64,000 bases of DNA from Niabella aurantiaca DSM 17617. Lineage in GTDB: Bacteria > Bacteroidota > Bacteroidia > Chitinophagales > Chitinophagaceae. This document shows, piece by piece, positions 29,081 to 62,687 of the stretch. The notes under the pieces were generated by a model. That model had not been told where the DNA came from. It did no database searches and was given only the letters and a program-made list of their open reading frames with translations. How positions within the stretch are numbered: position 1 is the stretch's first letter; each line of letters opens with the position of its first letter. Location of the stretch: contig NZ_KB893637.1 in assembly GCF_000374125.1 (NCBI RefSeq), positions 310,001 to 374,000 of the forward strand. Reading direction: 5' to 3'. Position numbers and translations under genes: made by a program.

Positions 29081-29127
29081 TGGTTTTTATTGATGTACCA
29101 TTTGTTTTGAATCGTTGAGCTTTTTAC

Positions 29128-29139
29128 GCAATCGTTACC
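29128..29139. promoter_or_regulatory. Candidate LacI-type operator half upstream of the second sulfatase gene
   Basis: TTACGCAATCGTT shares 13 bases with the reverse complement of the palindrome upstream of the GH106 operon (31321-31338). The right half (ACC) is degenerate, so this is a partial operator. No CAGGAC repeat accompanies it. Confidence 0.35.
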
Positions 29140-29303
29140 GGAACCGGGAGCCATTGCTATCTGCTTTATTATAAAAGAGATAGCCGGCGGCCGGTAATAA
29201 AGATCCGCTTTACATAACGGCGCAGAACCGCTTCTGTGGAAGGATGGTAAACGGGCTGGGAAAAAAACAACCGTATTTTTGGAAACACTATTATTTATTT
29301 GCC

Positions 29304-30843: not shown

Positions 30844-30888
30844 CAGGACGGGTCAGGACGGCTAATAGAAAAAACGGTCCTATTTTAG
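30844..30888 (+). promoter_or_regulatory. PUL promoter 1 (rhaM): twin CAGGACGG repeats and -7 box
   Basis: Direct repeats CAGGACGG at 30844-30851 and 30854-30861 lie 10 bp apart. The -7 box TATTTTAG (30881-30888) starts exactly 27 bp after the start of the second repeat. The second repeat covers the place where a -33 TTTG would be. Transcription would start near 30894, 44 bp before rhaM. Confidence 0.75.
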
Positions 30889-30937: not shown

Positions 30938-31252
30938 ATGCAACGGATCGCTTTTAAAATGAAATTGTTTAATGGGTATGAAGCCGAGTACAAAAAACGG
31001 CATGATGCCTTGTGGCCCGAATTGCGGGAGCTGCTGAAGCAGACAGGCGTGCAGGACTACAGTATTTTTTGGGACGAGCAGACCAACGATCTGTTTGGCG
31101 TATTGACGCTGGAAGAAAACAGCACCATGGACGATCTGCCGGCCCACCCCGTAATGCAAAAGTGGTGGACCTTTATGTGCGACATCATGGAAACCAACCC
31201 CGACCGTTCGCCGGTATCCATGCCTCTTAAGGAATTGTTCCATCTCCAATAG
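30938..31252 (+). CDS. rhaM: L-rhamnose mutarotase
   Basis: The 104-residue protein matches the small RhaM family: MQRIAFKMKLFNGYEAEYKK, then RHDALWPEL (His22), LFGVLTLEE, and the conserved C-terminal KWWTFMCDIMETNPD. It converts alpha and beta anomers of L-rhamnose in the cytoplasm, speeding its entry into the isomerase pathway. It has its own promoter of the locus-wide type, placing rhamnose catabolism under the same control as the polysaccharide-degrading genes. The other rhamnose catabolic genes are not in the window. Confidence 0.93.
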   Translation: MQRIAFKMKLFNGYEAEYKKRHDALWPELRELLKQTGVQDYSIFWDEQTNDLFGVLTLEENSTMDDLPAHPVMQKWWTFMCDIMETNPDRSPVSMPLKELFHLQ

Positions 31253-31354: not shown

Positions 31355-31399
31355 CAGGACGGTACAGGACAGGGAGGGAGCCGTTAAACTCTATTTTTG
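31355..31399 (+). promoter_or_regulatory. PUL promoter 2 (GH106 operon): twin CAGGAC repeats and -7 box
   Basis: CAGGACGG (31355-31362) and CAGGACAG (31365-31372) are 10 bp apart. The -7 box TATTTTTG (31392-31399) starts exactly 27 bp after the start of the second repeat. The predicted start is near 31405, giving an ~87-nt leader before the ATG at 31492. Confidence 0.75.
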
Positions 31400-31491
31400 A
31401 AGCATTGTCATACGGAAGTTGACGGTTGAGCAGACTGCTGGCGGAAATGGCTTCCTGTCAGAAGGACCAGGGGCGCATCGGCTCCGATATT

Positions 31492-34350
31492 ATGAACGAT
31501 AAAATGTCGATTTTGAGAACCGGTTTTCTTATCAGGGCAGCGCTTGTAACGGGCGGGAGCCTTTTTATGTTTTTAGCTAAGGCGCAGATCAGCTGGCCAC
31601 AGATCACACAAACGCAGAAGCCCTGGACGCGCTGGTGGTGGGAAGGCAGCGCTGTGAACAAAGAAGGGCTTACCTGGAACCTTGAACAATACCGGAAAGC
31701 CGGCATTGGCGGCACCGAGATCACGCCGATCTATGGGATCCATGGCGAGGAGCAACATTTTACCCGCTTCCTGTCGCCCCGGTGGATGGAATGGTTTTCC
31801 CATACCCTGAAGGAAAGTAAGCGCCTGGGATTGGGGGTAGACCTGGCCAATGGAACCGGCTGGCCCTTTGGTGGTCCCTGGGTAAAAGATGCGGACGCCA
31901 GCAAATCGGTATATTACAAGACCTATTCCCTCAGCGGGGGGCAGCGGTTGCAGGAGCCCGTCGTGTACATCCGGGAAGGGTTTGTGCGTACTGCCAATAA
32001 CCGGCCGGCAAAACCGGACGCTATAAAAAACCCTGTTTCCGAAAATGAAAACCTGCAGGGGCTGGCCCTCGACCAGGTCCAGTTTGCAGGAAAACTGCCG
32101 TTAAAAGCCCTGATCGCTTACCCGGCAAAAGGTACACCGGTGAACCTCATCTCCAGGGTGGATACTACGGGCCGGTTGAACTGGACGGCTCCTGTCGGTA
32201 CAAATAACTGGACACTCTATGCATTGTTTGAAGGGTTGCATGGTAAAATGGTGGAGCGGGCGGCGCCGGGAGGTGAAGGTTATGCGATTGACCATTTTTC
32301 CCGTCAGGCGGCAGTGAACTATTTTAAACGCTTTGATGAAGCGTTTAAAGGAACGGACATCCGTTACCTGCGCTCCTTTTTTAACGACTCTTATGAGGTA
32401 GATGATGCACGCGGTCAGGCCAACTGGACACCAGATTTTTTTAAGGAATTTCAAAAACGGAAAGGCTATGATCTGCGTACCGAATTGCCGGCTCTTTTTG
32501 GCAGGGACAATGCCGACAAAAACAGCCGGGTGATCTATGACTACCGGTCGGTGATCGACAGGTTGTTGCTGGAGCACTTTACCTGGGAATGGAAAACATG
32601 GGCCAAGGGGAAGGGAAAACTGCTGCGGAACCAGAGCCACGGATCGCCCGCCAATACGCTGGACCTGTACAGCGTGGTAGACATTCCGGAAACAGAAGGC
32701 AACGACATCCTGCGGTTTAAATTTGCAGCTTCCGCCGCTCATGTTACGGGCAAGCCCCTGGTTTCTTCAGAGTCGGCTACCTGGCTGAATGAACATTTTC
32801 TGTCATCCTGGGGAGATGTGAAAAAAGCCATCGATCTGTATTTCCTGGGAGGGGTGAATCATATCTTCTATCATGGTACGGAATACTCGCCCAAAGAGGC
32901 TGCCTGGCCGGGCTGGCTGTTTTATGCGGCGGTACATTTTCAGCCCACCAATCCGCAGTGGAAAGATTTTCATGCCCTGAACCGCTATATTGCCCGTGTA
33001 CAGAGTTTTTTACAGCGTGGAAAGCCGGACAATGATCTTTTGCTGTATTACCCGATCATCGATCGCTATTCAGAGCCGGGCAGCGCCTTGCTGCAACATT
33101 TTGACGGGATGGAGAAGAACTTTGGCAACACCGATTTTGAGCATATTGCGCAGGAGATGGTGGAAAAAGGATATAGCTTCGATTTCTTCTCAGACCGGCA
33201 GTTGCAGCAGTTCCGGTATGCATCCGGCAATATCATCAGCGGGGGTAATTCCTATAGATCCATACTGCTGCCTGCCAATAAATTCATTACTGATGAGAGC
33301 CTTGACAAGATACTGGCTCTTGCGAACGCGGGGGCGAGAATACTCGTGTATAAAGCGCTTCCCAAAGATGTTCCGGGGCTTGGCGGGCTGGCAACGCGCC
33401 GGAAAAAGCTGTCGGTGCTGACCAGCCGGCTCCGCTTTACCGGCCAGGGGAATATCCGGAAAGCGGTTGTGGGCAAGGGCACCGTTTGGCTGAGCGATGA
33501 CCTGGAAGCCCTGCTGCAGGCGGGTGCGGTACGGCGCGAGAAACCGGGCGATCCGGACATTTACATTCTGCGGCGCAAACAGGCGGATGGTCATGTTTAT
33601 TTTATCAACAATCGCACGGATGCAGACGTGGAAGAGTGGATCACCCTGAATGGCGACGCCGCCTCGGTGGCATTGTTTGATGCGATGAGCGGCGAAAAGG
33701 GGCTGGCGGCCTGGCGCAAAAAAGATGGCGTCCTTGAGGTGCAGGTGCAATTGCAGCCACAGGCTTCGCTGCTGATCCGGACATTTGATACCATAAAGAA
33801 AGGGGAGCCCTTTCCATATAAAAATAAAGCAGGTGCGGCAACCGCCATTGAGGGGAACTGGACGCTCGATTTCCTGGAAGGAGGTCCGGCCATACCGGCA
33901 TCAAGAACGGTAAGATCGCTGGGGTCCTGGACGGATGCGGGCGGACAGGAAGTAAAGGACTTCTCGGGTACCGCTAAATATACCCTCTATTTTGACAAGC
34001 CGGGTAATGCAGCCCGGTACCTGCTAAACCTGGGCAAAGTGCATGAAACCGCTGAAGTATTCCTGAACGGCAAAAGCATGGCAACGCTCATCGGCCCATC
34101 CTTTACCACGGTGATCCCTGCTGCTGCCTTCCAGTTAAAGAACAACAGGTTGGAGATCGTGGTGGCCAGCCTGATGGCCAACCGGATCGCTTATATGGAC
34201 CGTCATCGGCTGCCCTGGAAAATATTTTACAATACGAATATGCCGGCAAGATTAAAGGAAAATGTAAAGGACGGTCTGTTCAATGCGGCACACTGGAAAC
34301 CATTGCCCTCGGGCCTTTTGGGGCCTGTTACGCTTACCCCTTTAAAATAA
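31492..34350 (+). CDS. Alpha-L-rhamnosidase-type glycoside hydrolase (GH106)
   Basis: The start at 31492 is followed by a signal peptide (SILRTGFLIRAALVTGG...AKAQ); another Met at 31504 is possible. The 952-residue product has GH106 landmarks: KPWTRWWWEGSAV near the mature N-terminus, GIGGTEITPIYG, LGLGVDLANGTGWPFGGPW, VSSESATWLNEHF and GINHIFYHG-type GVNHIFYHGTEYSP. A C-terminal beta-sandwich ends AEVFLNGKSMATL. GH106 enzymes remove terminal alpha-L-rhamnose from pectic side chains and RG-I/RG-II fragments in the periplasm. It heads a tight enzyme operon (4 bp to the next gene). Confidence 0.9.
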   Translation: MNDKMSILRTGFLIRAALVTGGSLFMFLAKAQISWPQITQTQKPWTRWWWEGSAVNKEGLTWNLEQYRKAGIGGTEITPIYGIHGEEQHFTRFLSPRWMEWFSHTLKESKRLGLGVDLANGTGWPFGGPWVKDADASKSVYYKTYSLSGGQRLQEPVVYIREGFVRTANNRPAKPDAIKNPVSENENLQGLALDQVQFAGKLPLKALIAYPAKGTPVNLISRVDTTGRLNWTAPVGTNNWTLYALFEGLHGKMVERAAPGGEGYAIDHFSRQAAVNYFKRFDEAFKGTDIRYLRSFFNDSYEVDDARGQANWTPDFFKEFQKRKGYDLRTELPALFGRDNADKNSRVIYDYRSVIDRLLLEHFTWEWKTWAKGKGKLLRNQSHGSPANTLDLYSVVDIPETEGNDILRFKFAASAAHVTGKPLVSSESATWLNEHFLSSWGDVKKAIDLYFLGGVNHIFYHGTEYSPKEAAWPGWLFYAAVHFQPTNPQWKDFHALNRYIARVQSFLQRGKPDNDLLLYYPIIDRYSEPGSALLQHFDGMEKNFGNTDFEHIAQEMVEKGYSFDFFSDRQLQQFRYASGNIISGGNSYRSILLPANKFITDESLDKILALANAGARILVYKALPKDVPGLGGLATRRKKLSVLTSRLRFTGQGNIRKAVVGKGTVWLSDDLEALLQAGAVRREKPGDPDIYILRRKQADGHVYFINNRTDADVEEWITLNGDAASVALFDAMSGEKGLAAWRKKDGVLEVQVQLQPQASLLIRTFDTIKKGEPFPYKNKAGAATAIEGNWTLDFLEGGPAIPASRTVRSLGSWTDAGGQEVKDFSGTAKYTLYFDKPGNAARYLLNLGKVHETAEVFLNGKSMATLIGPSFTTVIPAAAFQLKNNRLEIVVASLMANRIAYMDRHRLPWKIFYNTNMPARLKENVKDGLFNAAHWKPLPSGLLGPVTLTPLK

Positions 34351-42252: not shown

Positions 42253-43041
42253 ATGAAATTCATAAAGTATGGCCTTTTTGCCGCCGGTATTGCCCTGTTC
42301 TCTTTTTCTTATCTGAAGCCAAAGCCCGTGTTGTACATCATTGGTGATTCTACAGTTAAGAACGGAAGCGGCAGGGGAGCGGATGCGCTCTGGGGCTGGG
42401 GAAGCCTGATGGCCCCCCGTTTTGATACAACGAAAATAGACGTGCAGAACCACGCCATTGGCGGCCGGAGCAGCCGCACTTTTATTACGGATGGCCGGTG
42501 GGACAGGATTTTGGCAACCCTCAAAAAGGGCGATTATGTGCTCATACAGTTCGGGCATAACGACAGCAGCCCGCTCGACGACACGGCCAGGGCACGCGGA
42601 ACCATCAGGGGGATCGGGGATGAATATAAAGAAATCTTTAACCCCATTCGAAAGGTGAAGGAAACCGTATATACTTACGGGTATTATATGCGCAAATTTG
42701 TAACCGATGCAAAAGCCCGGGGTGCTATACCGGTTATTTGCTCACCGGTACCCCGTAATAATTTTAAGGACGGAAAGGTAAGGCGGGGCGATCAGGATTA
42801 TGGGCTTTGGGCAAAACAGGTGGCCGTGCAAACGGGCGCGTACTTCATTGATCTGAACCAGCGCATTGCTGATCAATATGACCGGATGGGCGCTGAAGCG
42901 GTTGATGAATTTTTTCCGAAGGATCACACCCATCCCAACCTTCAGGGTTCCACGCTGAATGCAGCCATGGTAGTTGCCGGCATCCGGGAATTAAAGAACT
43001 GTGACCTGAAGCTGTTTTTGAAAGCCGGCGTTTCCCCATAA
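42253..43041 (+). CDS. Rhamnogalacturonan acetylesterase-like SGNH hydrolase (CE12 type)
   Basis: The 262-residue enzyme has a signal/anchor segment (YGLFAAGIALFSFSYL). The SGNH blocks follow: block I GDSTV with nucleophile Ser33, block II AIGGRSSRTF, block III FGHNDSS, and block V DHTHPN with Asp224 and His227. CE12 enzymes remove acetyl groups from the galacturonate residues of rhamnogalacturonan, making the backbone accessible to PL11 and GH28. Their presence with those enzymes supports an acetylated RG-I substrate. It is the last gene before the 0.9-kb regulatory gap. Confidence 0.88.
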   Translation: MKFIKYGLFAAGIALFSFSYLKPKPVLYIIGDSTVKNGSGRGADALWGWGSLMAPRFDTTKIDVQNHAIGGRSSRTFITDGRWDRILATLKKGDYVLIQFGHNDSSPLDDTARARGTIRGIGDEYKEIFNPIRKVKETVYTYGYYMRKFVTDAKARGAIPVICSPVPRNNFKDGKVRRGDQDYGLWAKQVAVQTGAYFIDLNQRIADQYDRMGAEAVDEFFPKDHTHPNLQGSTLNAAMVVAGIRELKNCDLKLFLKAGVSP

Positions 43042-43810: not shown

Positions 43811-43855
43811 CAGGATGCATCAGGACGGTTAGAGATGACGACCCTGTTAATTTTG
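43811..43855 (+). promoter_or_regulatory. PUL promoter 3 (FAS1/SusCD operon): twin repeats and -7 box
   Basis: CAGGATGC (43811-43818) and CAGGACGG (43821-43828) are 10 bp apart. The -7 box TAATTTTG (43848-43855) starts exactly 27 bp after the start of the second repeat. The start is predicted near 43861, giving a leader of about 115 nt before the ATG at 43976. Confidence 0.75.
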
Positions 43856-43975
43856 AAATCAGTTAAGCTTGCCGTATAGATAATTGCTGATACTGCTTGA
43901 TTTAAATTTTAACTAACAAACGGGTACCCTTAGAAAAGATGGTTCAAAAGAATCACTGTATAACTGTTGCATAGT

Positions 43976-46174
43976 ATGAATAAATTACGTTTTTTGTTGA
44001 TCGCCTTGCCGTTTTTTGCCGCATGTAATAAAAAAGCATTTGACGAATATTACCAAAGACCGGAGTGGCTGGCCCAACCCATTTACCAGCAACTGGATTC
44101 CATGGGGAATTTTAAGAATTTCCTGGCCTGTATCGAAAAGGCAGGGTATAAGAATACCCTTGGATCGGGAGGCTCCTGGACGGTGTTTGCGCCCACGGAC
44201 GAAGCGTTTGGTAAGTTCCTGAAAGAACAGGGGATCGCCGATGTAAGCGAGATCAATGCTGCCCTGGCCGGGAAGATCGTGAGGACATCGATGGTTTATG
44301 ATGCCGAGCGGCTGGAGAAATTGAGCGATAACTTTTCTGCCCGCGGATGGGTGCCGGGCGTGGCTTTCAGAAGAAGAACGGTTTATTACGATTTTGTAGA
44401 AACGGACACAATCGGTGATGGCAAAACAATAAAGATCATTTCAACAAACCGCCGCCCGGGTGTAGCCTACGTTCCATCTGATTACAACAATAAGCACATC
44501 AGCTATTTCTTTAAGGATTATATGAGCAGCAGGAGCCTGGGTGCGGCAGACTATAACGCATTTTTTCCCGGTACAGAGTACACCGGTCTGAATATAGCAG
44601 ATGCAAAGATCGACCCCGATCGTAGTAATATCCTTGCAGAGAATGGTTATATCCACATTGTGGACAAAGTATTGCTGCCGCAGAAAAGTATGGAGCAGTA
44701 CCTGCGTGAAAGGCCGGAATACAGCACGTTTAAAGGGATCCTGGATCTGTATGCAACCTATACGTACAATGCGGATGTATCGCACCGGTACGAAGTGCTT
44801 ACGGGAAAGGCGGACAGCGTATTTACAAAAGGCTACCTGGATCTGGGGCTGGCATTGAACAATGAGAACTATGCTAAGGACGACGCCAACGATGCACAGG
44901 TAAATAATTTTTCGATAACCGTTCCGGATAATGCGGCAGTGGCCGATTATGCACAGCGCGTGCTGCTTCGGTATTATCCTGCCGGAACCACGCTGAAAGA
45001 TGTTTTTTATAATAACAGCACGATCCTGACGGAGTTTGTAAATGCGCACCTGTACAATACCCAGCTATGGCCCTCCCGGTTCAATGTCGAACAGAACTTC
45101 CAGGGAGAGAAACCAAAGGTGTCCACGGCAAATATCCGGGAAACAAAGCTGCTGAGCAATGGCGCGTTCTATGGCATCAATGCATGCCAGAGCGCCAATG
45201 TATTTCAATCAGTATATGCGAATGTGCTGCTGGATCCCAAATACCGGCTTACGCAAATTGCGCTGCAGCGCATGGGCCTGCATCTTACCTTAAAGATCCC
45301 GACCATACGGTACATGATGATACTGGTTGCCGACGACGAACTGCACCGGATGGGCTTTGAATACGATGCCTATAATACAACAGATCCGATCAGGTTTAAC
45401 GGCGGAAACGGAAGTCCTGCAATGGCTGCATTCCTGACCCTGAATATTATCCCTCTGGACAATGATCCCATACCGGATTTAAGCGGCAGGGGCATACTGG
45501 AAAGTTATACCGGCGAGTATGTGAAGTATGACAATTTTAAAATGTATTCGAGCGGTACCATGGACAGTGTGGTGAAATATGCGGCGGTTGATTCGGTTTA
45601 TACCGGGGCCGGCCTGTCGGCATCTTTGAATGGCGTGGTGGTTTATACCAACAAAGCGCTCCGGACCTCTGCAACGAATATTGCTGATTTCTTCAAATCG
45701 ATCGGCGCTGAAACAGCCACGTCGCCCTTTTACCGGTTTTTTCAATACCTGGTTAATACCGATATGTACTCGGCCAGTGACGGGAAGATCAATGGTATCG
45801 AACTGGGGTTGAATTATACGATGCTGGTCCCCAACAATGCGGCCATTGCACAGGCCGTTACCAATGGCGATCTGCCGACGTCCACCAAGCCAGGCGACCA
45901 GGCAAGCAAGGACCGGGTCAAGCGGTTCATACAGTACCATATCCTGAAGAACTCTTTTGCGATCGATGGGAAAAAAACAGGCCTGTTTGAAACATTGTGC
46001 CGGAATATTGAAGGGGAGGCCCAATCGGTGACGGTGGTCCTGAACCAGCCGGACCAGCTGGCGGTGCAGGATAACCTGGGTAATGTAGTGAATGCCGATG
46101 TTGTCAACAGCAACCTGCTGGGACAAAGGACCCTGGTGCATTCATTAAACGGATATTTAAAAAACGGGCTTTAA
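43976..46174 (+). CDS. FAS1 (fasciclin)-domain surface lipoprotein
   Basis: The 732-residue protein starts at the ATG at 43976; a TTG at 43967 was not used. The lipoprotein signal LIALPFFAAC is followed by NKK. A FAS1 domain lies at about 35-225: GSWTVFAPTDEAFGKFL in its first conserved segment and NGYIHIVDKVLLPQ in its last. A second, degenerate one may follow. A further FAS1-like domain lies at the C-terminus (YTMLVPNNAAI, RFIQYHIL, LVHSLNGYL). FAS1 domains usually mediate adhesion or protein binding. It is the first gene of the SusCD operon, so it is probably a surface glycan-binding or assembly partner of the SusCD complex (inference). Confidence 0.82.
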   Translation: MNKLRFLLIALPFFAACNKKAFDEYYQRPEWLAQPIYQQLDSMGNFKNFLACIEKAGYKNTLGSGGSWTVFAPTDEAFGKFLKEQGIADVSEINAALAGKIVRTSMVYDAERLEKLSDNFSARGWVPGVAFRRRTVYYDFVETDTIGDGKTIKIISTNRRPGVAYVPSDYNNKHISYFFKDYMSSRSLGAADYNAFFPGTEYTGLNIADAKIDPDRSNILAENGYIHIVDKVLLPQKSMEQYLRERPEYSTFKGILDLYATYTYNADVSHRYEVLTGKADSVFTKGYLDLGLALNNENYAKDDANDAQVNNFSITVPDNAAVADYAQRVLLRYYPAGTTLKDVFYNNSTILTEFVNAHLYNTQLWPSRFNVEQNFQGEKPKVSTANIRETKLLSNGAFYGINACQSANVFQSVYANVLLDPKYRLTQIALQRMGLHLTLKIPTIRYMMILVADDELHRMGFEYDAYNTTDPIRFNGGNGSPAMAAFLTLNIIPLDNDPIPDLSGRGILESYTGEYVKYDNFKMYSSGTMDSVVKYAAVDSVYTGAGLSASLNGVVVYTNKALRTSATNIADFFKSIGAETATSPFYRFFQYLVNTDMYSASDGKINGIELGLNYTMLVPNNAAIAQAVTNGDLPTSTKPGDQASKDRVKRFIQYHILKNSFAIDGKKTGLFETLCRNIEGEAQSVTVVLNQPDQLAVQDNLGNVVNADVVNSNLLGQRTLVHSLNGYLKNGL

Positions 46175-46190
46175 CCGGACTGTACATATT

Positions 46191-49100
46191 ATGAGAAAAA
46201 TTTTTGTATTTATCTGCTTTGCTGTTTTCTTCGGCAACCTGGCCCCCCTGCGGGCGCAGGATCAAAATGATTTGCTAACCGGTAAGGTAACCGATAAAGG
46301 AGACAACCAGCCTGTTGAAGCGGCCACCGTAACACTTATGGATAAGGACGAAAGGACTGTTTCCTCGACCACAACGGATGTGGAAGGGAATTTCAGTCTG
46401 AAGATCACGCAAAAAGGATTAAGGCTGAGCATCTCGCATACGGCCTATAAGAGCCCGCGGCCGGTCGTCATCGGCAACCTGAACACGATCAATGTGGCGC
46501 TGGAATCCAAAGCCAACAGTATGGATGAGGTGGTGGTCGTTGCGGAAAAAACAATCGATGATGGCAGTGGCATGGGACTATCCAAGGCGAGATCTACATC
46601 GGCGGTCTCATCCATCAATATGAAAGAGCTGGAGGAGATGCAGGCGGCTTCGCTGGACCAGGCGCTGCAGGGAAGGCTGGCCGGTGTGGACATCAGTACG
46701 GTTTCCGGCGATCCCGGTGCCGGCATGCAGATCCGGATCAGGGGTACCTCCTCATTGAACGGCGCGTCGGACCCTTTGATCGTGGTAGACGGTATGCCCT
46801 ACGATATTACCATCCCGGAGGATTTTAACTTTGCTACTTCCGATGATAATGCCTATGGGCAGCTGCTGAATATTGCGCCCTCTGATATCCGGGAGATAAC
46901 GGTATTGAAAGACGCCGCCGCCACAGCGATCTGGGGATCGAGAGCCGCTAACGGCGTACTGATCATTACCACCAAAAGAGGCAGCGTGGGTAAGCCCTCC
47001 CTGAGCTACAATTTCAAGGGCTCCATTTCCCGGCAGCCCAAACCCATCCCGATGCTGAACGGCGACCAGTACACCACGCTGTTGCTGGAGGAATACTACA
47101 ACGCGGGAAAATTGTTCTCGCTGTCGGAGAATGCGCAGCAGTTCCAGTACGACCCCAACAATACCTATACCTATTTCAACTACAGCAATAATACCGACTG
47201 GATCGGGGCCATTACGCAAACAGGATATTTCCAGGACCACAACATGCAGATCAGGGGCGGAGGGGAGAAAGCCCGGTATCTGGCTTCCCTGGGCTATTTT
47301 AACCAGAAGGGTGTTACCAAAGGTACCGGTACCAACCGGCTTTCTGCACGGGTAAACCTGGATTACCTGGTTTCTCAACGGATCACTTTCCAGTCGGACG
47401 TTTCTTATTCGCATGTTGATAACGATATGTTGTACCACACCAATGTAAGGGATGTGGCTTATCGTAAAATGCCCAACCAGGCCGTTTGGGAATATGACGA
47501 GTACGGCCGGCTTACCGGTAACCTCTTCAGTCCCGTGAGCACCGCCCAGGGTACCTATTCCGGCACGTACAATCCGCTTTCAATGGTCACCTATGCAACC
47601 AGTAAGCAGCTGGGCGATGTGGTAACCTCGCGGTTCAACCTGAAATATAAGCTGATCCCCCGCCTGCTTGAATTGAACAGTAATGTATCCTTTAACATCA
47701 ATAACAATAAATCGAAGAACTTTTTGCCGCAGTTAGCCACGGGAAGGCCTTTTACAGAAAGCGCGGTGAATAAGACCTCCGATAATGATTATGATCGTTT
47801 TTCGATGGATACCAAAACAAACCTGCTGTTTACGCCGCGGTTAGGAGAAGATCACCTGTTTACCGGTAACCTTTCTTTTCAGACATCCGAAACAAGATAT
47901 ACCATTCAGGGCCTCAGTTCTACCAATACCGCATCTTCGTTCCTGCAGGATCCCAGTATCCCGTCCCGGACGCTGACCGGATCGGCCCGCTCTTCCACCA
48001 CGCAATCGAGGGCTATCGGCGCTTTGGTGCAGGGAAACTACGTGTTTAAGAACCGTTACATTTTTGCGGCCAGTTTAAGAGGCGACGGCAGCTCCCGTTT
48101 CGGACCGGAGAACCGGTACGGGCTTTTCCCGGCTATATCCGGCGCCTGGCGCCTGGGGCAGGAGAATTTTATCAGGCGGATCAAATTTATTGACGATATA
48201 AAGTTCCGCGCAAGCTGGGGAAGAAGCGGTAATGCGCCCAGAAGCGACTACAGCTACATTAATGTGTACAATACTTATGACTATGCCTACCTGGGCGAGA
48301 ACGGGGTCTATTCCTCCAATATAGAACTTTCGGATCTGAAATGGGAAACGGTAACCCAGCAGAACCTCGGGTTGGATATAGAACTGTTCCAGGGTCGGCT
48401 AAGCTTTGGCGGTGAGCTGTATAAAAGGAGGACCACCGATCTGATGATGAACAAGATCCAGATCGCCAGTTATAACGGCTTCAATTCGCTGACGATGAAC
48501 GTGGGCTCCATGGACAATGACGGCTGGGAAGCAAGCTTCTATTACAACCCTGTTCGTACCAAAAGGTGGAATGTCAGCATCAATTTCAATATAGCTCATA
48601 ATGAGAATGTGATCCGCGAAATTTCGCCGCTATACCCAAGGGAGAATGCCAGAAGCGCGCTCAAGAACAAATCGTTCTTTACGTATTTGCAGGAAGACAA
48701 CCCCTTTGGATCCTTCTATGGATTTCGCTACCAGGGTGTGTATAAGGATGTGGCCGCCACCGTTGCAAAGGACGCGCAGGGCAACGCGATTATCGGACCA
48801 GACGGGGAAACCATTTATATGCGGTTTAACTACCCTGCGGTGGATTATATTTTTCAGCCGGGTGATGCCATGTATGAAGACATCAACCATGATGGTGTGA
48901 TCGACCAGAAAGACATAGTGTATTTGGGCAACAGCAACCCGAAGCTCACCGGCGGGTTCGGGTTTTCGGCCAGTTATAACCAGCGCTTGAAGCTGAGTGC
49001 ATTTTTTAACTACCGGCAGGGACTGGATATCATCAATGGTACCAAGATGAATACCTCGGATATGCTCGGATACAATAACCAGAGCACCGCTGTTTTAAGA

Positions 49101-49439
49101 AGGTGGAGGAATGAAGGCGATGTAACAGATATACCGAGGGCTTTATACGGGACGGGCTATAATTCCCTCGGATCGAGCCGGTATGTGGAAGATGCTTCGT
49201 TCCTGCGGCTGAGAAGCCTGACGCTGAAGTATGATTTTGATAAAACGATTTTAAAACGATTGGGCATTAACAGCCTGGGAACCTATATTACCGTGGAAAA
49301 TTTATGGACCTATACCAAATACACGGGGCAGGACCCGGACGTGGGTGTCCGTATCAAAGATGCCTTTTCCACGCTGATCGATTATTCAATGACGCCGCCG
49401 CTAAAAACAGTGACATTGGGTATTTCCATTATGTTTTAA
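46191..49439 (+). CDS. SusC-like TonB-linked outer-membrane transporter (pair 1)
   Basis: The 1082-residue protein has a signal peptide (FVFICFAVFFGNLAPLRAQ) and a carboxypeptidase-regulatory-like domain (about 28-105: TGKVTDKGDNQPVEAATVTL). A plug follows (about 120-250: ALQGRLAGVDISTVSG, IRIRGTSSLNGASDPLIVVDG, LKDAAATAIWGSRAANGVLIITTKRG), then a large beta-barrel ending VTLGISIMF. There is no STN domain, so it is not itself an anti-sigma signal transducer. It imports oligosaccharides with the SusD lid encoded 10 bp downstream. Confidence 0.95.
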   Translation: MRKIFVFICFAVFFGNLAPLRAQDQNDLLTGKVTDKGDNQPVEAATVTLMDKDERTVSSTTTDVEGNFSLKITQKGLRLSISHTAYKSPRPVVIGNLNTINVALESKANSMDEVVVVAEKTIDDGSGMGLSKARSTSAVSSINMKELEEMQAASLDQALQGRLAGVDISTVSGDPGAGMQIRIRGTSSLNGASDPLIVVDGMPYDITIPEDFNFATSDDNAYGQLLNIAPSDIREITVLKDAAATAIWGSRAANGVLIITTKRGSVGKPSLSYNFKGSISRQPKPIPMLNGDQYTTLLLEEYYNAGKLFSLSENAQQFQYDPNNTYTYFNYSNNTDWIGAITQTGYFQDHNMQIRGGGEKARYLASLGYFNQKGVTKGTGTNRLSARVNLDYLVSQRITFQSDVSYSHVDNDMLYHTNVRDVAYRKMPNQAVWEYDEYGRLTGNLFSPVSTAQGTYSGTYNPLSMVTYATSKQLGDVVTSRFNLKYKLIPRLLELNSNVSFNINNNKSKNFLPQLATGRPFTESAVNKTSDNDYDRFSMDTKTNLLFTPRLGEDHLFTGNLSFQTSETRYTIQGLSSTNTASSFLQDPSIPSRTLTGSARSSTTQSRAIGALVQGNYVFKNRYIFAASLRGDGSSRFGPENRYGLFPAISGAWRLGQENFIRRIKFIDDIKFRASWGRSGNAPRSDYSYINVYNTYDYAYLGENGVYSSNIELSDLKWETVTQQNLGLDIELFQGRLSFGGELYKRRTTDLMMNKIQIASYNGFNSLTMNVGSMDNDGWEASFYYNPVRTKRWNVSINFNIAHNENVIREISPLYPRENARSALKNKSFFTYLQEDNPFGSFYGFRYQGVYKDVAATVAKDAQGNAIIGPDGETIYMRFNYPAVDYIFQPGDAMYEDINHDGVIDQKDIVYLGNSNPKLTGGFGFSASYNQRLKLSAFFNYRQGLDIINGTKMNTSDMLGYNNQSTAVLRRWRNEGDVTDIPRALYGTGYNSLGSSRYVEDASFLRLRSLTLKYDFDKTILKRLGINSLGTYITVENLWTYTKYTGQDPDVGVRIKDAFSTLIDYSMTPPLKTVTLGISIMF

Positions 49440-49449
49440 AAACCAGTAT

Positions 49450-50922
49450 ATGCAAAAGATTTATTTGATTATAGGTATCGTCATAATAGCTGCCGGAATG
49501 AGCTCCTGCAAAAAATGGCTGGATCTTCAGCCGCAGGATGGCATTACCAAGGCGGAATTCTGGAAGACCAAAGAAGATGTCCGCGCGGCCCTTATGGGCA
49601 TTTATTCTTCGCTGAACGAAGGCGGTGTCGAAGAGCGGATCTTTATTTGGGGAGAGCTAAGGGGCGATATGGTCATCCCTACTTCTACCGCTTCGGATGA
49701 TGACCGTTTTGTGAAAAATATGAATATCCTCAGCACCAATGATATCTCCGATTGGAGCGCGCTGTACGGGGCGATCAATAACTGCAACCTCCTGATCGAC
49801 TTTGCCAAGGATGCCCGAGCTTTAGATCCCACCTTTACAGAAGACCTGTATAACTCCTACCTGGGCGAAGCGCTGACCATCCGGAGCCTGCTGTACTTTT
49901 ACCTGGTGCGGACCTTCCGGGACATTCCCCTGAAGCTGAAGGGCTCCTACAAGGATACTGACGTACAGCCAACGCCCCAGGCTACCGCCCAGCAGGTGAT
50001 CGGTCAGCTGATCTCCGATCTGACAACGGCGCAGGGGCTGGTGCCCGATTATCATGAGCCGCCGGCGCAGGGAAATAATGTAACGGAAAGCCCCGTGAAT
50101 AAAGGCCGGATCACAAAACCGGGAGTCACCGCTTTGCTGGCCGATGTGTATTTATGGAACGAGGAGTATGATAAGGCTGCCGCAGAAGCCGACAAGATCC
50201 TGGCAACGAACCGCTACCGGTTACAGGGAAAGGCTACCCTGTCCATATTCAGTTCCAGCACCAGCGAAACGATCTTTGAGATCAGCCATAAAGACTCACG
50301 GGAAAGCCCGATGTATGCCTTGGTGATCAACAGCAAAAAACCTTTTGCAGTGGACAACGTATTTGTCAATGCAGACGTTTTTACGCCCAACCTCCAGGGT
50401 GATCTTGATGCCCGGGACAGCCGGGGCGAACAGTTCCTTTTTGCTTCTGACGGATCCATTATCAAATACGGCATCGAAAACCCGAGCTATTATAATTTCC
50501 AGGTGTACCGGATCTCTGATGTAATGCTTATAAAGGCGGAAGCTGCTGCCCAGTTGGGAAGAGGCGCGGAAGCACTGGTGATTTTAAATGACCTGAGAAC
50601 GGCCCGCGGTGCTTTAGCAGCTACCAACCGGGAGGTTGATGAGGCAGACACCGATGATATTGTACGCTTCGTTATTGAAGAGCGCGCCCGGGAGCTGGCC
50701 TTTGAAGGAAAGCGCTGGTTTGATCTGTTGCGGCTTGCTAAAAAGGACAATTACAGCAACCTGGACGTACTGGTAGACCTGGTATCCAGAACGGCCGACG
50801 TGTCGGTAAAACAATCGGCCATCAACAAGATAAAAGATGTCAACAGTCACTACCTGCCGGTACTGGAAACAGAACTTTTCAAAGATCCCACGTTAAAACA
50901 AAATCCTTTTTACACAAAATAG
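49450..50922 (+). CDS. SusD/RagB-like surface glycan-binding lipoprotein (pair 1)
   Basis: The 490-residue protein has a lipoprotein signal (IIGIVIIAAGMSSC). SusD landmarks are CKKWLDLQPQDGITKAEFW, LRGDMVIP, YLGEALTIRSLLYFYLVRTF, ADVYLWNEEYDKA, and the C-terminal IEERARELAFEGKRWFDLLRL. SusD proteins form the lid of the SusC transporter and capture the glycan. It pairs with the preceding SusC gene. Confidence 0.95.
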   Translation: MQKIYLIIGIVIIAAGMSSCKKWLDLQPQDGITKAEFWKTKEDVRAALMGIYSSLNEGGVEERIFIWGELRGDMVIPTSTASDDDRFVKNMNILSTNDISDWSALYGAINNCNLLIDFAKDARALDPTFTEDLYNSYLGEALTIRSLLYFYLVRTFRDIPLKLKGSYKDTDVQPTPQATAQQVIGQLISDLTTAQGLVPDYHEPPAQGNNVTESPVNKGRITKPGVTALLADVYLWNEEYDKAAAEADKILATNRYRLQGKATLSIFSSSTSETIFEISHKDSRESPMYALVINSKKPFAVDNVFVNADVFTPNLQGDLDARDSRGEQFLFASDGSIIKYGIENPSYYNFQVYRISDVMLIKAEAAAQLGRGAEALVILNDLRTARGALAATNREVDEADTDDIVRFVIEERARELAFEGKRWFDLLRLAKKDNYSNLDVLVDLVSRTADVSVKQSAINKIKDVNSHYLPVLETELFKDPTLKQNPFYTK

Positions 50923-59363: not shown

Positions 59364-60689
59364 ATGAAGATCAATATGTACATAAGACTGATGGTTTTGT
59401 TGTTGCTGCTTTCAGGCAAAGAGCTTCGGGCCCAGGAACTTTTTCCCGATGGATCGCCGATACCCGCGTGGTTCCGGGAAACGGTGCCCACTGATGTGGA
59501 CGGGCTTGGGAAAAAATACCGCATCACCGATTATGGTGTGGTGCCCGACAGTACCCTGGTACAGACGAAAAAGATACAGGCAGTCATTGACAAGGCCGCC
59601 ACAGGTGGTGGAGTGGTCATGATTCCAAAGGGCGTTTTTCTGACCGGCTCTTTGTTCTTTAAACCAGGCACGCACCTGCACCTGGAAGAAGGAGCCACCC
59701 TGAAGGGAAGCAGCGATATCAGCGACTTTGAGCTGGTAACAACCCGTATAGAGGGACAGACGCTGAAATATTTTGCGGCCCTGGTGAACGCAGATCATGT
59801 GGATGGATTTACGGTCTCCGGCAAGGGTACATTGAATGGCAACGGGCTCAGTTACTGGAAGCATTTCTGGTTGCGGCGCCGGTTCAACCTGAAGTGTACC
59901 AATATGGATGAAATGCGTCCGCGTGTTTTGTATGTTTCCAATAGCAAGAATGTTCAGATCTCCGGCATCCGGCTCATCAATTCCCCCTTCTGGACCTCGC
60001 ATTATTATAAATGCGAAAACCTGAAATTGCTGAACCTGTTTATTTATGCGCCTTTTGAGCCGGTGAAAGCGCCCAGCTCCGATGCCATCGACCTCGATGT
60101 ATGCAGGAACGTGCTCGTCAAAAACTGTTATCTGTCCGTAAATGATGATGCGATAGCATTGAAGGGCGGAAAAGGACCGTTTGCGGATAAGGACACGGTG
60201 AACGGAGGGAATTACAATATCATTATTGAAGATTGTACCTATGGCTTTTGCCACAGCGCACTCACCTGTGGCAGTGAATCGATCCATGACCGGAATATTA
60301 TTTTGAGAAGATCCCGGCTGCAAGGCGCCCGGAGGGTATTGCAGTTAAAGATGCGTCCGGATACGCCGCAGCATTATGAATACATCACTATTGAGGGACT
60401 TACCGGCGATGCAGGAGTGCTGCTGGATGTAAATCCCTGGACACAGTTTTTTGACCTGAAGGGGGAAAAGAAAATGCGTACCACGGATGCGCACCATATC
60501 ACTTTTAAGAACCTCCGGCTGAATTGTGATGCGGTATTCAACGTAAAAAAGTCGGACCAGTATTCGCTTCATGATTTTATGTTTAAAGATCTTAAAATAA
60601 GAACGGGGAAAACCTCAATGGTTCATAAAGAAGATATGGGGAATGCGGTTTGGGATGATGTTATGATCAACGGAGCGGTAGTAAAATGA
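59364..60689 (+). CDS. GH28 polygalacturonase-type enzyme
   Basis: The 441-residue secreted enzyme has a signal peptide (MVLLLLLSGKELRAQ). GH28 beta-helix motifs follow in order: SPFWTSHYYKCE, SSDAIDLDV (Asp240, Asp243), NDDAIALKGGKG (Asp261, Asp262), GFCHSALTCGSE (His297) and RRVLQLKM. It shares the fold but little sequence with the lipoprotein GH28 in the upstream enzyme operon. An exo-acting role on galacturonate or rhamnogalacturonan ends is likely. It lies 146 bp after the second SusD gene, beyond a weak terminator. Confidence 0.91.
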   Translation: MKINMYIRLMVLLLLLSGKELRAQELFPDGSPIPAWFRETVPTDVDGLGKKYRITDYGVVPDSTLVQTKKIQAVIDKAATGGGVVMIPKGVFLTGSLFFKPGTHLHLEEGATLKGSSDISDFELVTTRIEGQTLKYFAALVNADHVDGFTVSGKGTLNGNGLSYWKHFWLRRRFNLKCTNMDEMRPRVLYVSNSKNVQISGIRLINSPFWTSHYYKCENLKLLNLFIYAPFEPVKAPSSDAIDLDVCRNVLVKNCYLSVNDDAIALKGGKGPFADKDTVNGGNYNIIIEDCTYGFCHSALTCGSESIHDRNIILRRSRLQGARRVLQLKMRPDTPQHYEYITIEGLTGDAGVLLDVNPWTQFFDLKGEKKMRTTDAHHITFKNLRLNCDAVFNVKKSDQYSLHDFMFKDLKIRTGKTSMVHKEDMGNAVWDDVMINGAVVK

Positions 60690-60794: not shown

Positions 60795-62687
60795 ATGGCG
60801 ATGAACCGTTTTTGGTTACAGGTTTTGTTTTTGATGCTGGGCATGACTGCCCGGTCGCAGCGGTTGATGGAGCCGCTGAACAGGGGTGTAGTGGCCATCC
60901 CCGACGGCAGCGGGAAGATCTTCGTCAGCTGGAGGTTGCTGGCTACGGACCCGGACGGTATTGCCTTTGATCTTTACCGGCAAACGGGAAAAACGGTAGT
61001 AAAGCTCAATAAAGATCCGCTTACGGAGACGACCGGCTTTTCAGATGTTTTTCCGGCCGCCGCGCACGCGGTAACCTATATTGTAAAACCGGTATTCAGG
61101 GGCCGGGAGTTAAGCGGGGGCGGGCGTTTTGTGCTTACGGATAAAGACCGTCCCTTTTTATCCCTGCCCCTCAGTATTCCGGATGGCTATGCTGTCAATG
61201 ACGGCTCTGTTGGTGACCTGGACGGTGATGGTACGTATGAGATTGTATTGCATGTGGCGGGCAAGGGGCACGATAACAGCCATGCCGGTTTTACGGACCC
61301 GCCGCTGATACAGGCGTATAAAATGGACGGCGCCTTATTGTGGACCATCGATCTGGGAAAGAATATTCGCGAGGGCGCACACTATACCCAGTTTATGGTG
61401 TACGACCTGGATGGTGATGGCAAGGCGGAAGTGGCCATGAAGACTGCGGACGGAACGGTGGACGGCAGGGGAAATGTTGTAGGCGACCGTACAAAAGACT
61501 GGCGGAATGATAAAGGATATATCCTGGCGGGTCCCGAGTATTTAACGGTATTTAACGGGCAAACGGGCGCGGTCATCCATACGGTGGATTTTGTTCCGCC
61601 GCGCTCCTCCCTTTCATTAACCCCGTCACCGGCGGCCCTGAAAAAGATCTGGGGTGATGGCTATGGCAACCGCATGGATCGTTTTCTTGCGGCCATTGCC
61701 TACCTGGACGGTGTGCATCCGAGTTTGATCATGACCCGCGGCTATTATACAAGAACCGTGATCGCCGCCTGGGATCTGAGAGATAAAAAACTGCAGCAAC
61801 GCTGGGTATTTGATTCCGGTGTCCGGGGAAACGAACGGTTTGCCGGTCAGGGAAACCATAACCTGAGTATTGCCGATGTAGATGGGGACGGCAGGGATGA
61901 AATTGTTTATGGTGCCATGTGCATTGATGATAATGGCCGGGGGCTGTACAGCACAGGCCTGGGGCATGGGGATGCGCTGCATGTGTCTGACCTGGATCCA
62001 TCCATCCCGGGTCTGGAGGTATTTGACATCCAGGAGCGTTTTGATGATGCGGGTTGCAGTTTTCGCGCGGCGGCCACAGGAGAAGTGTATTGGAAAAAGC
62101 CGTCTGTAAAGGCCGGAGCGGATGGGGAAGGCCCCGGGCGTGGCCTGGCCCTCGATGTGGATCCCCGCTATCCCGGCGCAGAATGCTGGGTGGCGGGGGC
62201 CGGTATCACCGGAATGTTTGATTGCAGGGGAAACAGGATCGCAGACAGAACGCCCGCCTGCAATATGGGTGTTTTGTGGGATGGCGACCTGCTGGCGGAA
62301 ATACTCAACGGAACAAATATTGATAAATGGGATTATGCCCGTCAGTCTGTAAACAGGCTGCTCAGCGCGGCCCGGTATCAGTGCCGCAGCAATAACGGCA
62401 CCAAGGCAACGCCGGTACTGGTAGGCGATATTTTAGGCGATTGGCGGGAAGAGGTGCTGTACAGCACGGTTGATAACAAAGAACTGCGGATCTTTTCAAC
62501 AGCTGTTCCCACAACCCATCGCTTTTATACGCTGATGCAGGATCCGCAATACCGGCTGAGCATTGCCTGGCAGAATGTGGGCTATAACCAGCCGCCGCAT
62601 ACCGGTTTCTTTTTTGGAGCGGGCATGAAGCAGCCGCCGGAACCGGATATCAAAGTGGTTAAACCGGTAAAGGCAGGTGCTCAATGA
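60795..62687 (+). CDS. Rhamnogalacturonan lyase (PL11)
   Basis: The 630-residue enzyme has a signal peptide (FWLQVLFLMLGMTARSQ) and a PL11 beta-propeller: MEPLNRGVVAIPDGSGKIFVSWR-like N-terminus (RGVVAIPDGSGKIFVSWRLL), then several calcium-type DxDGDG loops (DLDGDGTYE, DLDGDGKAE, DVDGDGRDE). GNHNLSIADVDGDGRDEI and the C-terminal WREEVLYSTVDN with TLMQDPQYRLSIAWQN are family hallmarks. PL11 cleaves the alternating rhamnose-galacturonate backbone of RG-I by beta-elimination. It is the strongest single marker of this locus's substrate. No lipidation signal is seen, so it is periplasmic or secreted. Confidence 0.95.
   Translation: MAMNRFWLQVLFLMLGMTARSQRLMEPLNRGVVAIPDGSGKIFVSWRLLATDPDGIAFDLYRQTGKTVVKLNKDPLTETTGFSDVFPAAAHAVTYIVKPVFRGRELSGGGRFVLTDKDRPFLSLPLSIPDGYAVNDGSVGDLDGDGTYEIVLHVAGKGHDNSHAGFTDPPLIQAYKMDGALLWTIDLGKNIREGAHYTQFMVYDLDGDGKAEVAMKTADGTVDGRGNVVGDRTKDWRNDKGYILAGPEYLTVFNGQTGAVIHTVDFVPPRSSLSLTPSPAALKKIWGDGYGNRMDRFLAAIAYLDGVHPSLIMTRGYYTRTVIAAWDLRDKKLQQRWVFDSGVRGNERFAGQGNHNLSIADVDGDGRDEIVYGAMCIDDNGRGLYSTGLGHGDALHVSDLDPSIPGLEVFDIQERFDDAGCSFRAAATGEVYWKKPSVKAGADGEGPGRGLALDVDPRYPGAECWVAGAGITGMFDCRGNRIADRTPACNMGVLWDGDLLAEILNGTNIDKWDYARQSVNRLLSAARYQCRSNNGTKATPVLVGDILGDWREEVLYSTVDNKELRIFSTAVPTTHRFYTLMQDPQYRLSIAWQNVGYNQPPHTGFFFGAGMKQPPEPDIKVVKPVKAGAQ

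Follow-up and report, generated by a model that had tools for sequence, protein, structure and literature searches.

The locus raises the question of which signal, or signals, would switch on rhamnose genes and polysaccharide genes together in Niabella aurantiaca DSM 17617, and through which regulators. The window, that is, the whole stretch of 64,000 nucleotides that was analysed, lies on contig C13 of a 5.93-Mb genome (G000) and contains rhaM, GH106, GH43, GH28 and GH2 genes, two SusC/SusD sets with fasciclin-domain genes, a second GH28 gene and a PL11 gene, a gene set that, with GH28 and PL11 as markers, identifies it as a locus directed at rhamnogalacturonan I. The GH106 gene is followed on the same strand, up to position 43041, by GH43, GH28, an unknown, GH2, GH43 and GDSL genes. 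The initial annotation had described two repeats 10 bp apart in three promoters, those of rhaM (P1), of the GH106 operon (P2) and of the fasciclin-SusC-SusD operon (P3), and the repeats are found exactly where it had placed them (Table 1). The element common to the three promoters is CAGGAY-N4-CAGGAC, with 27 bp from the start of the second repeat to the -7 box in all of them. The positions of the -7 boxes and this spacing were also correctly described, but the proposed form TAnnTTTG does not fit P1, which departs from it by one letter. A common layout that covers the -33 region and keeps a constant distance to the -7 box is likewise supported. P1, P2 and P3 are the sole exact matches to CAGGAYN4CAGGAC within the window; allowing up to two mismatches raises the count to 10, where 6.5 would be expected, so a 16-mer read this loosely is not rare. 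The present analysis adds to that annotation an 8-bp unit (CAKGAYRG), a CATGAY form that is commoner before rhaT in relatives and a LacI-type palindrome.

Table 1. Promoter elements and genes of the locus, in positions of the window
Feature	Position	Strand	Remarks
P1 (rhaM promoter) twin repeat CAGGACGGGTCAGGACGG	30844..30861	+	repeat starts 30844/30854 (CAGGACgggtCAGGAC); 16/16 against CAKGAYRGNNCAKGAYRG
P1 -7 box TATTTTAG	30881..30888	+	27 bp from second-repeat start; one mismatch to TAnnTTTG
rhaM, L-rhamnose mutarotase	30938..31252	+	PF05336
P2 LacI-type palindrome ATGCAAACGATTGCGTAA	31322..31339	+	33 bp start to start ahead of first repeat
P2 twin repeat CAGGACGGTACAGGACAG	31355..31372	+	repeat starts 31355/31365 (CAGGACggtaCAGGAC); 16/16
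P2 -7 box TATTTTTG	31392..31399	+	
GH106 alpha-L-rhamnosidase	31426..34350	+	first gene after P2
P3 LacI-type palindrome ATGCAAACGTTTGCGTAA	43778..43795	+	33-bp offset to first repeat, equal to P2
P3 twin repeat CAGGATGCATCAGGACGG	43811..43828	+	repeat starts 43811/43821 (CAGGATgcatCAGGAC); 15/16
P3 -7 box TAATTTTG	43848..43855	+	
Fasciclin-domain protein	43967..46174	+	first gene after P3; then SusC 46191-49439, SusD 49450-50922
GH28 (second in locus)	59364..60689	+	
PL11 rhamnogalacturonan lyase	60795..62687	+	PF21348, PF18370

A search of the whole genome for the repeat together with its -7 box, allowing up to three mismatches, returned 31 matches, and the reversed control pattern 12. The best five, with 0-1 mismatch, are P1, P2, P3, C17:521 and C4:3177. 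Specificity is lower when the -7 box is left off: the 16-mer alone has 66 matches at up to one mismatch and its reversed control 30. Besides P1, P2 and P3, the 14 best matches (0-2 mismatches) include SusCD genes on C17 (C17:521), a GH78 gene on C4, a fasciclin-SusC locus at C13:418950, and rhaT with three genes whose order and Pfam domains suggest rhaDW, rhaI and rhaK. Also among these 14 are sites upstream of an FMN-dependent dehydrogenase gene (lactate-dehydrogenase type, named by eye) and of a GH127 gene divergent from GH78, where the -7 box is poor, a site for a GH78 gene on C24 that falls within the end of the preceding gene, C21:228033, which lies within a RhaT-paralog gene, and C25:31184. 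The last two of the 14 are perfect 18-bp copies with -7 boxes on C1, before an ECF sigma gene/SusC locus (C1:58459; L078:5460) and before a GH20 gene (C1:69445; L078:16446), both with no evident rhamnose link. Confinement of the motif to the rhamnose locus of the window is rejected, the motif being regulon-wide in this genome. As a separate observation, a divergent GH106 pair on C3 (near 198674; L083:5668-5692) has back-to-back 18-bp sites, one toward each gene; the site between these genes is a three-mismatch match in the genome scan.

The initial annotation had proposed a single binding code and a rhamnose regulon. In agreement with this, the matches are not spread at random across the genome, they cluster before its rhamnose genes, and the motif is conserved upstream of orthologous loci, before rhaT, in relatives. 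For the comparison with relatives, a generalised unit of 8 bp, CAKGAYRG, repeated once at a 10-bp period, was taken from the sites of the own genome, and the regions upstream of rhaT and of fasciclin genes were scored against it (of 16) with no requirement for a -7 box. The rhaT set comprises 67 of the 73 genomes with RhaT, leaving out the own genome, G004, G126, G129, G135 and the clipped L137, as well as the second RhaT of G119 (L199). Of these 67 other genomes of the family, 52 reach a score of at least 14, 35 of them with a perfect site, whereas 5 of 1340 shuffled upstream regions and 1 of 67 reverse strands reach it. TAnnTTT is found in 43 of the 52, its distance to the second-unit start being 27 bp in 34 and 26 bp in 9. 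Moreover, 25 of 30 P3-like fasciclin-SusCD loci (own included) score at least 14 against 2 of 600 shuffles; in 19 of these 25, a -7 box lies at 26 or 27 bp when one of its last four letters may differ.

The fetched stretches, 787 kb in total and picked for rha genes, GntR genes or earlier matches, yield 36 matches of at least 15, whereas the reversed consensus yields none; the distance to the box is 27 bp in 25 of the matches and 26 bp in 5. Also, 80 named loci around GntR genes, from genomes that partly overlap the 67, give 40 of 44 assessable rhaT promoters with the repeat, Mucilaginibacter and Cyclobacteriaceae among them; this count leaves out 18 loci with the rhaT promoter outside the locus, and it scores L316 as a miss although a perfect site precedes a differently called ORF. 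Further targets in relatives include GH78, GH106, SusC, rhaM and lactate-utilisation-like genes. The repeat stands upstream of only 7 of 28 GH106 matches (own included), so P2 is poorly conserved, and its candidacy as a conserved GH106 promoter is rejected. The twin CAGGAY repeat is a variant of CAKGAYRG-NN-CAKGAYRG, which is predicted from these comparisons of sequence to be the operator of a rhamnose regulon.

The protein acting on this operator had been placed in the AraC, HTCS or NarL families by the initial annotation. This assignment is not supported, because the period is 10 bp and not the about 21 bp of the direct repeats of AraC-type RhaR and HTCS proteins, and because a GntR-family gene is the regulator linked to rhaT in neighbourhoods read by eye, and co-occurs with RhaT. 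In 20 rhaT neighbourhoods of relatives, a subset of the 73 RhaT genomes chosen for high identity and long contigs, the ORF clusters comprise four rha genes, with GntR regulators in 11 of 20 and LacI regulators in 2 of 20, recognised by eye; the GntR gene is divergent beside rhaT in 9 and near rhaT in 2 more. Among the 73 genomes with RhaT, 67 have a GntR match of at least 250 bits, and among the 74 without RhaT, 2 do; the comparison ignores kinship. Upstream of rhaT, the motif (at least 14) is found in 46 of 54 cases with a close GntR, in 5 of 9 with a diverged GntR (about 40-46% identity) and in 2 of 5 with no detected GntR, these two being G016 and G142, the latter a 60%-complete genome.

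The own copy of the GntR gene (G000:C24:90262-91284) is unlinked to rhaT, and its closest relative in the named-genome scan is that of Niabella drilacis (91%). The winged helix PF00392 scores 35.7 bits against a cut-off of 27 in the relative L145, in agreement with the PDB sequence matches. The structural model (pLDDT 90.4) shows a LacI/PBP1-like domain, with matches that include the AraR effector domain 3tb6; the assignment of this C-terminal sugar domain is by fold, its Pfam score of 20 bits being under the cut-off of 26.5. GntR proteins usually bind palindromes, whereas those of MocR type bind direct repeats and several of them are activators, as described in PMC5320631; if the GntR protein is the binder here, its operator would be made of tandem direct repeats in place of the usual palindrome. 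The most likely activator of the repeats would be a GntR-family protein with a LacI/AraR-like sugar-binding domain. On the side of exceptions, the 98%-complete genome G016 (L176) has a perfect rhaT motif and no GntR match.

The initial annotation had proposed a single activator for the three promoters. The shared repeat code stands, but this reading is incomplete, as two of the three promoters add a precisely spaced LacI-type site. This palindrome, ATGCAAACGWTTGCGTAA, precedes the first repeat in P2 and P3, where the half-operator AACGWTTGCRTAA starts exactly 28 bp ahead of the repeats, and is absent upstream of P1. The pattern TGCAAACGNTTGCGTAA, with up to one mismatch, has five sites genome-wide, four of them at the pre-repeat position (P2, P3, C17:489 and C13:418969-418985). 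Also, AACGWTTGCRTAA stands before two genes, one SusC-type and one GH28, of a cluster for pectin/galacturonate on C20. The cluster contains pectate lyase, pectinesterase-like, GH43, GH88, tagaturonate reductase and altronate/galactarate dehydratase-type genes together with glucuronate isomerase (UxaC), KduI, KDG kinase-like and KDPG aldolase-like genes. A further copy of the half-operator stands between a LacI gene (G000:C2:319846-320880) and a pectate lyase gene on C2. Both the HTH domain PF00356 and a palindromic operator with central CG are those of a LacI-family protein, and the location of the sites before pectin/galacturonate genes is the one expected of a pectin/galacturonate regulator.

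One of the 30-locus sets goes back to 33 matches in 26 genomes, 30 of them being kept as loci. In the loci of that LacI gene and its relatives, the neighbours include a SusC homolog in 16 of 30 and GH28 in 7 of 30. Of 29 LacI loci (own included, clipped L364 left out), 22 have a perfect 12-bp core, AACGWTTGCRTA, no more than 320 bp upstream, against 0 of 580 shuffles. In promoters with the LacI site alone, 22 of 23 have a box of the form TAnnnTYG/TAnnTTG, looser than the canonical one and picked after inspection of those same sequences, 54 bp (18) or 55 bp (4) from the core start; in the own genome, the distance to the -7-like box is 54 bp for the SusC, GH28 and pectate lyase genes. Canonical TAnnTTT was found in only 2 of 22 LacI-only promoters, at 100 and 117 bp. 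In the composite promoters, the core lies 65 bp (28 + 10 + 27) from the -7 box, about one helical turn more. Long stretches amounting to 1.75 Mb, chosen for their genes or matches and partly overlapping the 787 kb, contain 17 perfect core readings, counting the reverse reading of the P3 palindrome and with L145/L262, on contigs of equal length (367136), as probably one place read twice; a repeat lies at offset 28 in 7 of them, and the other repeat offset between 14 and 44 is 38, seen once. The half-operator at offset 28 is observed in 6 of 30 fasciclin loci (own included), with 12/12 letters in five and 11/12 in one. A further half-operator, CGGTAACGATTGCGTAA, lies on the minus strand of the window at 29124-29140, about 100 bp before a sulfatase gene (29244); it was not counted as a functional LacI operator, its strand having no -7-like box 50-59 bp away.

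The reading that we favour, with a probability of roughly 0.68, is a promoter with two activators, where rhamnose would act via the GntR protein on the repeats and galacturonate or pectin via the LacI protein upstream; binding, ligands, activation and cooperation are all inferred from sequence. The half-sites, a pair of like 8-bp units (CAKGAYRG) spaced by one helical turn, would be on the same face of the DNA and overlap the -33 region. Then, from an operator located 26-27 bp before the -7 box, the bound protein would replace the missing -33 contact, as in class II activation; a site over the -33/-35 element and a fixed distance to the -7 box, the features of class II promoters, are both found here. 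The fixed spacings point to activation rather than simple repression. The GntR protein would sense rhamnose or an early catabolite, and P1 and rhaT would receive the rhamnose input alone. P2 and P3 would have, in addition, the operator of the LacI protein encoded on C2, which, liganded by galacturonate or a catabolite, would act from a class I-like site, 65 bp before the -7 box. Thus, P2 and P3 may read both sugars of the rhamnogalacturonan I backbone, rhamnose and galacturonate. A more tentative proposal, to which we give somewhat less than even odds, is that two cytoplasmic monosaccharide sensors, both activators set at fixed helical distances, switch the polysaccharide-utilisation locus and that full induction needs both sugars; such a chemical AND gate would identify the polymer with no need of an oligosaccharide sensor of the HTCS or SusR kind; AND is here the inferred type of logic, AND, additive and OR promoters being alike in sequence.

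The same repeats could instead be the operator of a repressor, with an AraR-like GntR protein blocking RNA polymerase at the -33 region until rhamnose releases it. Repressors are numerous among the GntR and LacI proteins that respond to sugars, and TreR, HutC, PurR and YvoA appear among the family and structure matches; the site and the promoter also overlap. Nonetheless, the distance of 26-27 bp, kept in the 43 of 52 rhaT and 19 of 25 fasciclin-SusCD promoters described above, is needed by activators and not by repressors, the repeat occupies the place of the -33 TTG, and binding to direct repeats is known from MocR proteins, several of them activators (PMC5320631), which makes repression unlikely. 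The identity of the binder could also be different, an AraC-, HTCS- or DeoR-type protein taking the place of GntR. In Bacteroides, the known rhamnose activator is an AraC-type RhaR, and DeoR-type RhaR sites are direct repeats with a period of 10-11 bp (PMC3870299), a period that the present repeats share; the own genome has AraC genes (e.g., L074:9759-10649, and L083:1662-2543 beside the GH106 pair) and one DeoR gene (L092, C1:628512) divergent from a gene without Pfam match, and its GntR gene lies away from rhaT. Against this, the AraC and HTCS motifs described for Bacteroides have 21-bp periods (PMC3870299, PMC3878776), the regulators recognised by eye in the 20 rhaT neighbourhoods are of the GntR and LacI families, and GntR co-occurs with RhaT. 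Moreover, the 3-kb loci of 10 DeoR matches of the own genome, read by eye, showed no rha genes. A DeoR gene linked to rha genes was not seen by eye in these loci or in the 20 rhaT neighbourhoods. We consider binding by one of these families quite improbable.

Regarding the upstream element, the LacI palindrome could be an independent roadblock or a catabolite-type site, its fixed offset being inherited and not functional. The retention of the palindrome in only 6 of 30 fasciclin loci indicates that these promoters manage without a LacI site; however, four promoters of the own genome and seven other loci (G103, G071, G083, G029:C9, G119, L162 of G018 and L276 of Terrimonas) share the offset despite differing intervening sequence, and an offset without function is given a low probability. 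The idea that these are ordinary promoters with unrelated CAGGA repeats could draw on the genome counts of the bare 16-mer and its reversed control given above, but chance of this kind is refuted by the conservation before rhaT across genera, the fasciclin-SusCD, 787-kb and composite counts also speak against it, and its probability is negligible.

A comparison of the proposed two-activator promoter with known systems shows partial likeness to several of them. RhaR of Bacteroides thetaiotaomicron (BT3768, AraC family) is described as a positive regulator of L-rhamnose catabolism with a direct-repeat site of 21-bp period (PMC3870299, PMC3878776). The system described here is alike in phylum, rhamnose control and direct repeats, whereas it differs by a GntR protein, a 10-bp period and the addition of rhamnosidase and SusCD promoters to what is a single target operon for BT3768. 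The repeats of Bacteroides HTCS motifs are reported to be about 21 bp apart on average (PMC3878776). The sites of DeoR-family RhaR, a protein described for four taxonomic groups with Rhizobium and Chloroflexus as examples, are reported to consist of two imperfect direct repeats of 10-11-bp period (PMC3870299), a period like that found here; this protein is a repressor in Rhizobium, in contrast with the GntR identity of the rhaT-linked gene here. The GntR family is represented in Bacteroides by FucR (BT1272), as listed in PMC3878776. The likeness to AraR of Bacillus subtilis lies in the GntR DNA-binding domain, where the arabinose repressor domain 4egy matches by sequence, and in the AraR effector domain 3tb6, which matches the model. 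AraR is a repressor that acts on palindromes, whereas tandem direct repeats at an activator-like position are found here. GntR activators of the MocR type (GabR, PdxR) bind direct repeats with their winged helix and are often divergent from their target (PMC5320631), but they have an aminotransferase-like domain where the present protein has a LacI-like sugar domain.

For the second input, LacI-family KdgR and UxaR control hexuronates in Bacteroides (PMC3878776), and UxuR2 does so in Algoriphagus (PMC5507952). The LacI protein proposed here is like them in family and in its galacturonate genes, the likeness consisting of these two points; its operator, alone or paired with the rhamnose site, has the two distances to the -7 or -7-like box given above. 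In Escherichia coli rhaBAD, RhaS acts at the -35 region with CRP just upstream; the second input here would be a second substrate sugar and not a general starvation signal. In the open-licence PMC papers searched, no description of this GntR regulon, motif or composite promoter was found. For Chitinophagaceae and some relatives, the analysis predicts a rhamnose regulon, including its operator, candidate regulator gene and targets, and its spacing rules are exact enough to be used in annotating genomes and designing reporters. The analysis also provides a testable answer to how a mixed-sugar polymer could be recognised, with two monosaccharide signals combined at one promoter. If true, the use of tandem direct repeats by a sugar-domain GntR protein in a class II position would widen the known range of the family.

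Finally, the units differ between the two kinds of promoters. Both are CATG in 38 of 52 rhaT promoters and both are CAGG in 24 of 25 fasciclin-SusCD promoters (Fisher p about 1e-12, kinship ignored), and the CATG form before rhaT leads to the rejection of CAGGAC as a general consensus. This split may correspond to a tuning of affinity, or to two related regulators or a second paralogous GntR. In some relatives (L160:7893-7920; L140), three tandem 10-bp units, and not two, are observed upstream of rhaT.
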